From assembly GCF_001485215.1 (NCBI RefSeq), contig NZ_BBWW01000001.1:372001-436000 (forward strand): 64,000 bases of DNA, written 5' to 3'. The DNA is from Leptolyngbya sp. NIES-2104. GTDB taxonomy: Bacteria; Cyanobacteriota; Cyanobacteriia; Leptolyngbyales; Leptolyngbyaceae. Position numbers and translations under genes: made by a program. The notes below the pieces were generated by a model that saw nothing but the letters and a program-made list of their open reading frames with translations, was not told where the DNA came from and ran no database searches. Shown here in pieces: positions 2,767 to 6,654 of this stretch; the first letter of the stretch is position 1, and each line of letters begins with the position of its first letter.

Positions 2767-2853
2767 GACTAACGTTCCCGCTCACCGGACGCAGAGCACC
2801 TTTGCTTTTTACCGATAACCTCAATTCGTTCCGGTGCAGCGGGGTTGTTAGGT
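2767..2853 (-). repeat. attC-like recombination site (integron cassette end)
   Basis: Read on the minus strand the site begins with ACCTAAC, matching the R'' consensus RYYYAAC. It ends with GTTAGTC, one base off the R' consensus GTTRRRY. Between them CTAAC pairs with GTTAG, then AACC/GAAC is an unpaired spacer. CCGCT then pairs with AGCGG, a single G bulges out, and CACCGG pairs with CCGGTG. A loop of about 42 bases closes the stem. Unpaired central spacer, extrahelical G and terminal loop are the known attC recognition features. The stop codon of the methyltransferase gene lies inside R'', as is common for cassette genes. Confidence 0.78.
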
Positions 2854-4434
2854 GCGGTGGCTATAGTCTTCTAAAGCTTTTAGTAGAAAATCTGCTGGTG
2901 CGTTTGCTAACTCTCTAGGTTCCAATTTATGCAACCCATCTCCGTAAACCCGTCCTTCGTGAATCAAGCTTTGGATAGGAATTGAATTCAAGGCGTTCCA
3001 GACAGGCTTTATCAGTTCGGGGTTATTTAACAGTAAGTTTTTTAATTGCGGTTTTGGATACATCATCAGATAAACATTAGGTGCAACTGCCTTGGAATGA
3101 TTAAGGATAAATCGAAAGGGCTTATTGTTTCTAGATTTACGCCGTCCCATATATGGACATAAAATCATTGCAGGATCTCTAGTTTCTTGCAAATACCAAA
3201 GCGAGCGATGCCTACATAAATAACGATCTGAAATTCCAATCCTCTCGCCTTGTTGAAGATAGCTCCACACTGAAGGATATTTAACTTGTAACCATTCCAT
3301 TGGTTGTCTGCAAGTTAGCAAAAAAAGCTTGCGTTCCAGCCTCGGGTTGCCTTGCTCATCTGAAAGTATTTCATCATCTAGCAAGTACCGAGGACTAGGA
3401 AGGATGGGAGTTAAAAATTCAAACGGAATATGAAGATTGTCGATCTGCTCAAGCGTAAGGATAAAAAAGTCGTTTGCTCCAGTGGCAACTCCTCGTTTAA
3501 TTTCAAATAAATCATATAGCTTAGTTTCAGCTTGAATATCATTCTTCTGAAGTAGCGAAATTGAAGTGTAGTTCCATTTTGATAGCTCTTTCAGCGTTTT
3601 TGACGAGATTTTGCTTGAGCAAATTGGGTAAGTGATAGTTCCTCCATAAGTAAAATCTACCAAATAGTTACAATCCAGTTTGGTGTTTCTAAACCAAATC
3701 ACTGATGTAGAAACTAGAGCATCACCAAACTGCAAGTCGTCAGGAGCAAATTGATGCACTCGCAATAGGGTTACTTGCTCTAGCAGGTATTTCTTGAGCT
3801 TTTTTCCATAGTTCACGTCCATAAATTCAGAAGGAATTATCCAGCAGGCTAGACCATTTTGTGCCATCCAGCTATGCGCTGCCAACAGGAAATAACAGTA
3901 AAGACCTGCCAAACCACTTAGTTCAACACCCGTGTTTTTTATTCCTAGTCTTTTCAGGGCAATCTTCTTCTCCTTTGATAAATGGTGGTGACGTACATAG
4001 GGTGGGTTGCAAATCAACAAGTTAGATCTAAGAACTTCATGTTCGGGTGGAGGGATTTCTGTGAAATCTGCAATATGAAGCTTAAGAAGAGTTTTCGCCC
4101 ATAACTTGATTGCTACTTCGGCATAGTCTTGGTCAATTTCATAACCAACAGCGCTTTCAATTTGTTCAGAAGGAAATAATCGTAGCAATGCTGAATAGAA
4201 CGAACCAGTGCCAATCGCTGGATCTAAAAAGTGAATTCCTTCACTAGCCGGGAGTAAAGTCTTAGAGTATTTAAGAATCTCAATTGCAAGCGAATTGGGT
4301 GTAGCAAATTGTCCCAATCGGTTACGCTCTACAGAATTTTTAGAAGCATCAAGTTGAATTTGCTCAACTACTCTTTCAGCTTCTGTTAAGCCAACATTGT
4401 AAAATTGCCTACAATCCAAATCCTGCAAAATCAT
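2848..4434 (-). CDS. N6-adenine DNA methyltransferase of a XamI-like type II system
   Basis: A 528-residue class I SAM-dependent methyltransferase. It shows the GQFATP approach segment (residues 41-46), the SAM-binding motif DPAIGTGSF (71-79) and the catalytic NPPY (143-146) typical of N6-adenine methylases. The long C-terminal half has the layout of an Eco57I/TaqI-like target-recognition region. It would protect the host DNA from the neighbouring nuclease. The start overlaps the end of the nuclease gene by 26 bases, so the two are translationally linked. The stop codon lies within the attC-like site, and the gene lacks the CGATCG hexamers of the host. Confidence 0.9.
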   Translation of the reverse strand: MILQDLDCRQFYNVGLTEAERVVEQIQLDASKNSVERNRLGQFATPNSLAIEILKYSKTLLPASEGIHFLDPAIGTGSFYSALLRLFPSEQIESAVGYEIDQDYAEVAIKLWAKTLLKLHIADFTEIPPPEHEVLRSNLLICNPPYVRHHHLSKEKKIALKRLGIKNTGVELSGLAGLYCYFLLAAHSWMAQNGLACWIIPSEFMDVNYGKKLKKYLLEQVTLLRVHQFAPDDLQFGDALVSTSVIWFRNTKLDCNYLVDFTYGGTITYPICSSKISSKTLKELSKWNYTSISLLQKNDIQAETKLYDLFEIKRGVATGANDFFILTLEQIDNLHIPFEFLTPILPSPRYLLDDEILSDEQGNPRLERKLFLLTCRQPMEWLQVKYPSVWSYLQQGERIGISDRYLCRHRSLWYLQETRDPAMILCPYMGRRKSRNNKPFRFILNHSKAVAPNVYLMMYPKPQLKNLLLNNPELIKPVWNALNSIPIQSLIHEGRVYGDGLHKLEPRELANAPADFLLKALEDYSHRT

Positions 4435-5374
4435 CGATACGGTGCTCCCAAACCCAATCTATACCTTCGGCGGCGAAATAGCCTAAGTCTCCACTGTCAA
4501 AGTAACCACACAGAAATAGAACAAACTCAATTGTATTGCCATACGTGGCATTTAGCTGCTGAACCTTTTTGGCTTCTTCTTTTCTACGCTTATTGACATT
4601 TGTAAAATCTCCTGCCGATTTCGCCTCTACCAATAATGGGTAGTCGCCAGGTTGGGCAGTTTTACGCATAATGACTGCATCAATCGGGATATTAACCGTC
4701 TTTCCACCTTCTTCCGCCGAATTGACAAGGATGTTTAGCCGAAAGCTATAGGTTCCTGGAGGCATTTCATCGAACTTTACACGTTGACCAGCAGGCAATA
4801 AGCGATACTCACGTGCATCAAGCCATGTTGCGATTTCCTTTAACTGCCTTGTCTCTTGAGCATTGCGAACAATCGGATCTGCTGACGAACCACACAACCG
4901 GTCGGCAACAATCGTCGCTGCACGATAAATTTCGCTCTCCAGAGGTGTTTGATTGGTGTTTAGCCAAGGAAAGATATCTCGATCAGCAAGTCTTGTCACA
5001 ATGTCTGTAATTTTTCCTAATTCTTCATTGAGCCGAGCATCTGTCAACCGAACAGGTAGTTTTCCTTTGACTTCCATACGCTTGACAACGTTTTCAGCTA
5101 CATTTGCTAGTCCAATCAGCCGATCTCTAGCAATTGGTGGGCAGGTACACATCCTGAGAGTCGGCAATATACCTGGATTCTGCCGAAGAATCTCCGGTTG
5201 CAATGTTTTGAGATTATTGGTTGCCTTCAAGGTTGAGGCTACAACTTCCGTGACTTTAATACGAGTATCACGAAATGCCTGTGGTGCAAAATTCATAAAC
5301 CAAGAATTATACATATCCACAGACGCTGCTACGTCTGCTTTCCAACGATCTGGTTTATCACGATTTACAGCCAT
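4409..5374 (-). CDS. XamI-family type II restriction endonuclease
   Basis: A 321-residue protein whose N-terminal region (NRDKPDRWKADVAASVDMYN) and TLRMCTCPP motif resemble the XamI restriction endonuclease family. A PD-(D/E)XK-type active site can be read as Asp232 in PIDAVI followed by Glu250 and Lys252 in LLVEAKS. It should cut unmethylated foreign DNA. XamI itself recognises GTCGAC, but I cannot confirm specificity from sequence. It is the first gene of the cassette, and the methyltransferase follows with overlap. A palindromic operator-like element lies about 50 bases upstream. Confidence 0.88.
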   Translation of the reverse strand: MAVNRDKPDRWKADVAASVDMYNSWFMNFAPQAFRDTRIKVTEVVASTLKATNNLKTLQPEILRQNPGILPTLRMCTCPPIARDRLIGLANVAENVVKRMEVKGKLPVRLTDARLNEELGKITDIVTRLADRDIFPWLNTNQTPLESEIYRAATIVADRLCGSSADPIVRNAQETRQLKEIATWLDAREYRLLPAGQRVKFDEMPPGTYSFRLNILVNSAEEGGKTVNIPIDAVIMRKTAQPGDYPLLVEAKSAGDFTNVNKRRKEEAKKVQQLNATYGNTIEFVLFLCGYFDSGDLGYFAAEGIDWVWEHRIDDFAGFGL

Positions 5375-5424
5375 GCGAGCTTTGGAGAATTGTGCGTCTC
5401 CACTTTACCCCTTAATTACTTCAC

Positions 5425-5448
5425 GAGCAAAAACTTTGCTCACGTCAA
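5425..5448 (-). promoter_or_regulatory. Operator-like palindrome beside a TTGACG box upstream of the nuclease gene
   Basis: GAGCAAA, a three-base spacer and TTTGCTC form a perfect 7-bp inverted repeat at 5425-5441, flanked by partly matching bases. On the minus strand a TTGACG hexamer (5448-5443) resembling a -35 box abuts it, so a protein bound to the palindrome would sit in the promoter spacer. I see no convincing -10 box at the right distance, and there is no controller-protein gene in the cassette. The regulatory role is inferred. Confidence 0.4.
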
Positions 5449-5476
5449 TACCAAAGACTGAGAACCTAACTATTAT

Positions 5477-5509
5477 TTCTACCGATAAGACACTGCTCAA
5501 TCGGTAGAA
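5477..5509. repeat. 10-bp stem hairpin just outside the cassette 5' end
   Basis: TTCTACCGAT (5477-5486) and ATCGGTAGAA (5500-5509) are perfect inverted repeats around a 13-base loop. No T-run follows on either strand, so it is a poor terminator candidate. It lies seven bases outside the predicted 5' cassette boundary. A structured target could have favoured integration there, but that is speculation. Confidence 0.5.
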
Positions 5510-5524
5510 TCTGTCTCCAACCGG

Positions 5525-5624
5525 AATTATGCCGCGTGAAATCGCCATAACTCCCCTTTTTCCAGGATTTATCCCGATTCTAAACCGGATAACTCTCCTA
5601 TTTGGACAATTATACCGAGTGAAA
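5525..5624. repeat. Pair of imperfect 17-bp direct repeats
   Basis: AATTATNCCGNGTGAAA occurs at 5525-5541 and 5608-5624 (15 of 17 bases identical). A shorter shared piece, ATAACTCYCC, lies at about 5547 and 5589. Most of 5471-5798 is otherwise non-coding, with no other gene or RNA I can support. The function of the repeats is unknown; they could be operators or remnants of an older element. Confidence 0.4.
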
Positions 5625-5737
5625 CTCCGATTTCGCGCCCTTAACTACCCATAATGCGAGCAAGCTAGCAACGCGCTTACAGAAACCATAGACGCGATCG
5701 CAATCTATCTTCAGTCCCGTTCAATGACCACACTGTC

Positions 5738-5787
5738 AGCCCCGGAATGGAATTCGGGGCGAGTCAGCAACGAAGCGAAAAGACTGA
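5738..5787. repeat. GCCCC..GGGGC palindromic element, copy 1
   Basis: A palindrome with GCCCCGGAAT on the left, a GAATTC centre and CGGGGC on the right is followed by GCAACGAAGCG. The same core and the same GAAGCG tail recur at about 7.3, 31.5, 31.6 and 52.0 kb, so this is a dispersed small repeat. It lies just beyond the 3' end of rpiA and could form a strong hairpin in the transcript. Confidence 0.6.
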
Positions 5788-5798
5788 TCAAACTAGCT

Positions 5799-6503
5799 CT
5801 AGAACTCTCTTACGCTTGGCTGACCGTCTTTGACTTCCCCGACCATAATCACATCAGCAACGCCGACGAATAAGCCATTTTCTAGAACTCCCGGCAGATT
5901 GTTCAGCGTCTTTTCGAGTTCAGCCGGGTTATCAATCTGATCAAACTTCACATCAATCACTAAATTCCCTTGATCAGTCACAACCGGACCCGCTTTTTTC
6001 ACGCCCATTCTCAACTGAGGCTTACCACCGAGTTTCTCGATCGCTTTCATTACCGGAGTCACTGCCATCGGAACCACTTCAACGGGTAGGAGAAATGTCG
6101 AACCCAATCGATCGACGAGCTTCCCACTATCCACTACCACAATGAACTGATCCGCTAAGCTATCGACAATCTTTTCTTGAGTGTGAGCCGCGCCGCCCCC
6201 TTTGATCAAATTCTTTTGCGGATCAACTTCATCAGCCCCATCGATCGCAATATCAATCTTTTCGATTTCGTCCAAGGTCGTTAACGGAATTCCGAACTGA
6301 CGAGCGAGAACGATCGCTTGAAATGAAGTTGGAACTCCCTTAATATTTTGCAGATCACCCGACTGTAATCGTTCTCCGATCGCTTGAATGGCATAAGCTG
6401 TCGTCGAACCTGTCCCCAATCCCACGATTGAATTGGACTGGACTTTCGCTGCTGCCGCATAGCCGACTTGCTGCTTCATTAATGTTACGGGGTCTGCATT
6501 CAT
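5799..6503 (-). CDS. rpiA: Ribose-5-phosphate isomerase A
   Basis: Interconverts ribose 5-phosphate and ribulose 5-phosphate in the pentose phosphate and Calvin-Benson pathways, in the cytosol. Family landmarks are [12 protein letters not shown] near the N-terminus, DGADEVD and [12 protein letters not shown], which form the phosphate-binding and catalytic site. From the ATG at 6503 the protein is 234 residues, normal for RpiA, and AGGA lies nine bases upstream. An ATG at 6527 would add eight residues that do not look conserved. The gene is monocistronic on the minus strand. Confidence 0.95.
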
Positions 6504-6654
6504 CGATCGCGTTCCTGTAAAAATCATCCGTTTTTCACTCTATCAACTTTGGGGACTTAGCTGAAAATTTAATTTGGGGATGAATCGTGATGAAATTAAT
6601 AGTACAAAAACTCGCAGCACTGTAAAATGCGAGTGAATTAGCGGAGTGATAGTC

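Follow-up and report, generated by a model that had tools for sequence, protein, structure and literature searches.

A XamI-type restriction-modification cassette beside an attI-like site in a probable integron remnant of Leptolyngbya sp. NIES-2104

Integrons are bacterial gene-capture devices. The window analysed here, a 64 kb stretch of DNA from Leptolyngbya sp. NIES-2104 (contig NZ_BBWW01000001.1, positions 372,001 to 436,000), carries two overlapping genes on its minus strand. The gene at 4409–5374 encodes a XamI-type type II restriction endonuclease of 321 amino acids, which matches Pfam RE_XamI (PF09572, E 1.2e-121) and PADLOC REase_II (E 9e-105) and keeps the EAK motif in the family alignment. 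The gene at 2848–4434 encodes an N6-adenine DNA methyltransferase of 528 amino acids, which matches Pfam Eco57I and N6_Mtase and PADLOC MTase_II (E 6e-130) and has an NPPY motif in its translation. The two genes overlap by 26 bases and both are intact; the pair is thus a complete type II restriction-modification (RM) system of the XamI family, as originally predicted. The target of XamI is GTCGAC. This hexamer was seen once against 21 expected occurrences in 111 kb of the host genome, made up of the window and other stretches. Its avoidance is uninformative because the relatives are equally depleted and CTCGAG is depleted too. CTCGAG and GAGCTC were both seen 0 times in the 111 kb (36 and 12 expected, respectively), and the relatives show the same depletion.

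At the methyltransferase end lies an attC site (2767–2853, minus strand). Read from the sequence, R'' is ACCTAAC (2853–2847) and R' is GTTAGTC (2773–2767), which differs from GTTRRRY at one base, with a stem and spacers between them on the minus strand. The methyltransferase stop codon (2850–2848) falls within R'', as had been claimed. The site has the conserved R and L boxes, unpaired central spacers and extrahelical bases of attC sites. The original prediction gave R'' and the unpaired spacer correctly, but it counted one extrahelical base where two are present on the L'' side, and the 42 bases it gave for the terminal loop are too many.

Covariance model R2, built from 26 copies with the window and every attC of its genome left out, scored the site at 88.5 bits (E 1.8e-21), its sole match across the 64 kb window; model R1 gave 91.4 bits. 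The single minus strand of 2767–2853 folds better than 199 of 200 shuffles (z −2.8), which is modest on its own. The 84-base element was found again in many cyanobacterial genomes. When 28 cyanobacterial copies were aligned, 92.9% of the cells were paired, both-sided (compensatory) changes filled 95 cells versus 30 in shuffles, and the covariation score was 0.456 versus 0.121 for shuffled alignments. A search of Rfam returned no relevant family. It is these relatives that provide the strong evidence, and we regard the predicted attC-like fold as real.

From crossover point to crossover point, the cassette covers 2,697 bases (2773–5469, minus strand), with both points between the G and the TT of the core and the limits taken from core positions and boundary homology. 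It ends at cores of the GTTRRRY type. The 5' core, GTTAGGT at 5464–5470 (minus strand), forms the junction with the attI-like site described below and is, as predicted, the exact reverse complement of R''. It lies about 2.7 kb from the attC site and 89 bases ahead of the first ATG at 5374 (90 in the original prediction).

The leader between the core and this start codon (5375–5463, minus strand) is conserved among cyanobacterial XamI RM loci. Four of them were compared: the window, UBA8803 (L150), MP9P1.79 (L005) and a Chroococcidiopsis plasmid (L230). The alignments from core to ATG gave z values of 6.5–11.7 in all six pairs, and homology begins at the core, whereas the 100 nt upstream of it gave z of about 0 in all six pairs and are unrelated. 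Directly ahead of the core, L150 has an attC and the window another, attI-like sequence. A leader shared from the core on, with differing sequences ahead of the core, is what cassette exchange at the core predicts, and the leader homology among the four loci supports the 5' boundary. Taken as a whole, the sequence supports a genuine integron-type gene cassette with a complete XamI-like RM system, and its recombination by IntI in a cell is predicted. A promoter scan of 5300–5800 found no more than expected by chance.

The attI-like site occupies 5470–5640 (minus strand), with an approximate 5' limit; its 3' end reads CGGTAGAAATAATA followed by G, and then comes the crossover point. This family has 11 copies in 7 of 58 genomes. 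The window copy is 68–82% identical to the others up to the core, and beyond the core identity falls to the shuffled level. In G033:C451, a copy sits between an intact integron integrase gene (intI; 319 amino acids, 437 bits with TIGR02249) and two attC sites. This complete integron (L054) shares its attI and attC families with the window but has an intact intI and different cassettes. In G003:C254, at a contig end, a copy directly adjoins an intact intI (87% identical in protein). As the family adjoins intact intI in two relatives and its homology ends at the core, we read 5470–5640 as an attI site, a function assigned from position and homology boundary. The cassette thus occupies what appears to be the regular place of a first cassette in an integron, which contradicts the original prediction that it was inserted outside one. 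Three attI copies in G027 (C52, C80 and C37; L056, L096 and L098) are followed by an identical first-cassette sequence.

By position and homology boundary, the locus has the attI site of a complete integron; it does not have the adjacent intI. A tblastn search detected no intI in the 64 kb window, so the earlier claim that no integrase lies nearby holds locally; the genome as a whole, however, contains intI remnants. The TIGR02249 search of the host genome returned only two. One, at C1:326335-326961, about 48 kb from the cassette locus, is an intI with an internal deletion of residues about 122–228, and the other is a fragment on C5; no functional intI was found in the host genome. The former is an integrase pseudogene, and about 2 kb from it the opposite strand carries an attC (L094:6312-8962, G000:C1:324311-326961). 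The latter (L095:339-461) codes for 41 C-terminal residues that share 85% identity with the cognate IntI, and it lies close to the beginning of a contig of 25 kb.

Beside the 11 attI copies, intI is full in two, truncated in three and without recognisable remnant in six, to which the window copy belongs. The truncated genes are N-terminal remnants in G027:C57 and C52 and a C-terminal remnant in G027:C37, so deletion of intI has occurred more than once beside this attI family. Because three related copies carry truncated genes, we favour loss of intI from the window locus as well.

The cassette was also described as lone. This is correct locally, with one attC in the window, but a genome-wide search detected about 19 attC sites in about a dozen places (E < 0.01) in addition to the intI remnants. 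All eight genus genomes contain 13 to 46 attC sites each (E <= 0.05). Solitary attC sites are common in the host genome. Where copies of the element form arrays, they share one strand and run opposite to intI. A second integrase-less attI occurs in the host genome at C1:139152 and is followed by two attC sites. This locus (L044:4381-7279, G000:C1:136380-139278) holds genes for a WYL-type regulator, a Rieske protein and a GNAT acetyltransferase.

On the attC side, the cassette converges with an AAA_33 kinase-like gene on the plus strand (2257–2724, Pfam AAA_33, E 1.2e-15), at which no attC of its own was seen. On the other side, where an intI gene would normally lie, the attI site is followed by rpiA (5799–6527, minus strand, Pfam Rib_5-P_isom_A), which is kept in nearly all relatives. 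Four genus relatives have the PMT/rpiA neighbourhood without the insertion: PMT and rpiA are about 100 bases apart in G006 and G007, and another short gene lies between them in G001 and G004. Since the relatives keep this neighbourhood without it, the integron piece was probably gained in this lineage. The intergenic regions of the four relatives have no sequence in common with the window locus, so no exact empty-site junction is readable. Between attI and rpiA, at 5739–5794, lies a short dispersed repeat around GCCCCGGAATGGAATTCGGGGC, of which several copies occur in the host genome and its relatives.

With an attC site, an attI-like site, a core junction and intact RM genes at the locus, no intI beside them and other integron parts across the genome, we consider it quite likely that the locus is an integron remnant without its integrase gene, in which a single XamI-type RM cassette holds the first position beside attI. 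An integrase would have taken up the circular cassette at attI, using the folded, single-stranded form of attC, and intI would subsequently have been deleted, as the truncated copies beside three related attI sites suggest. Expression of the RM genes would probably start from the attI side or from the conserved cassette leader, and the endonuclease would cut incoming unmethylated DNA. As the genome holds no intact intI, the cassette is probably now fixed in place.

A less probable explanation is that intI was never present here: the attI-like site would disperse with no integrase gene attached, and integrases encoded elsewhere in the cell would act on it in trans. A full intI is missing beside nine of the 11 attI copies, six of which show no remnant either, the host genome has two integrase-less attI loci, and the G027 copies share their first-cassette sequence, all of which would fit such use. 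The truncated intI directly beside three copies, however, requires deletion only. Moreover, the 5' edges of the attI-like copies do not coincide sharply, and neither ends nor a transposition mechanism of an attI unit was found. We think it rather unlikely that dispersed integrase-less attI sites of cyanobacteria, served in trans, capture cassettes at many chromosomal places.

The original proposal of insertion outside any integron, at a secondary site of the attG type, has become improbable. Such insertions are described (Loot et al. 2024, as cited in PMC12901181), many attC sites of this genome stand alone and the window contains no intI; but the 5' neighbour of the cassette belongs to a conserved attI-like family found beside intact intI in two relatives, and the attI-like homology ends at the crossover point. 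An attG-type target at the 5' junction was dropped as a candidate once this family had turned up next to intact intI. That the palindrome is a dispersed cyanobacterial repeat unrelated to integrons, next to the RM genes by chance, might be suggested by its recurrence in many cyanobacterial genomes, but its copies form arrays on one strand that run against intI, and both cassette ends are marked, which refutes this; with attC-type covariation and extrahelical bases as well we give it almost no credence.

Like CALIN, which are attC sites without an integron integrase and are regarded as degraded integrons (PMC9024848), and like single-attC loci, the window has an attC cassette without an adjoining integrase gene. 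It differs from CALIN in having one attC only, below the current IntegronFinder default of two, and in its recognised attI-like site; IntegronFinder detects no attI outside class 1. Cyanobacterial attC sites have been modelled earlier (PMC8352920), and both cyanobacterial intI (PMC2426708) and RM systems in cassettes (PMC9892861) were already known. The kind of locus is thus familiar; what is less well known is the attI family of cyanobacteria, which is dispersed and mostly lacks an integrase gene. Outside class 1 integrons, attI sites are reportedly little characterised (PMC9024848), and the present family is defined by sequence. An attI at the 5' junction makes decayed integrons separable from insertions outside integrons. 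In cyanobacteria, a whole defence system appears to move as one integron cassette, and the same XamI system appears as cassettes in several other phyla.

Among 80 endonuclease relatives, an attC was found at an expected end in seven, and most showed none with this model. A hand-written attC detector, applied to the 80 XamI loci, let too much through (a score of 11 was passed by about 2% of random windows) and served only for reading individual loci. Five contigs, namely Nitrospira (L159), Thiobacillus (L162), Desulfobacteraceae (L169) and two unclassified ones (L170 and L205), carry XamI RM cassettes that match the window in gene content and order; each has an attC on the methyltransferase side, and a GTTRRRY core precedes the endonuclease gene by a short distance. 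They have a common GTTAGCGGGC before the endonuclease gene, and the attC after the methyltransferase gene begins with CGCTAAC. In contrast to the window, their attC is of a different sequence type, their endonucleases are about 60–65% identical to ours, and the contigs of L159 and L205 also carry intI. L205 has its RM cassette in first position, with an intact intI immediately ahead of it.

Closer to the window are L150 (UBA8803), L005/L151 (MP9P1.79) and L230 (Chroococcidiopsis thermalis pCHRO.01), with endonucleases 82–85% identical and leaders homologous from the core onward. They differ in that the upstream element of L150 is an attC and not an attI, in L005 only GCCTAAC, which resembles R'', is left at the stop codon, and inspection of L230 by eye showed no attC. 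XamI RM systems may have entered integrons repeatedly, or one cassette lineage may have spread widely.

Other genes precede the RM cassette at two loci. In Cyanothece sp. SIO2G6 (L061:4369-5467), a TIR/SEFIR-domain cassette (PADLOC bSEFIR) lies directly before the XamI RM cassette and is the second defence-like cassette in that array. In UBA8803 (L150:5150-7804), a helicase-like gene (PADLOC candidate PDC-S28) is directly followed by an attC and then by the XamI RM genes.
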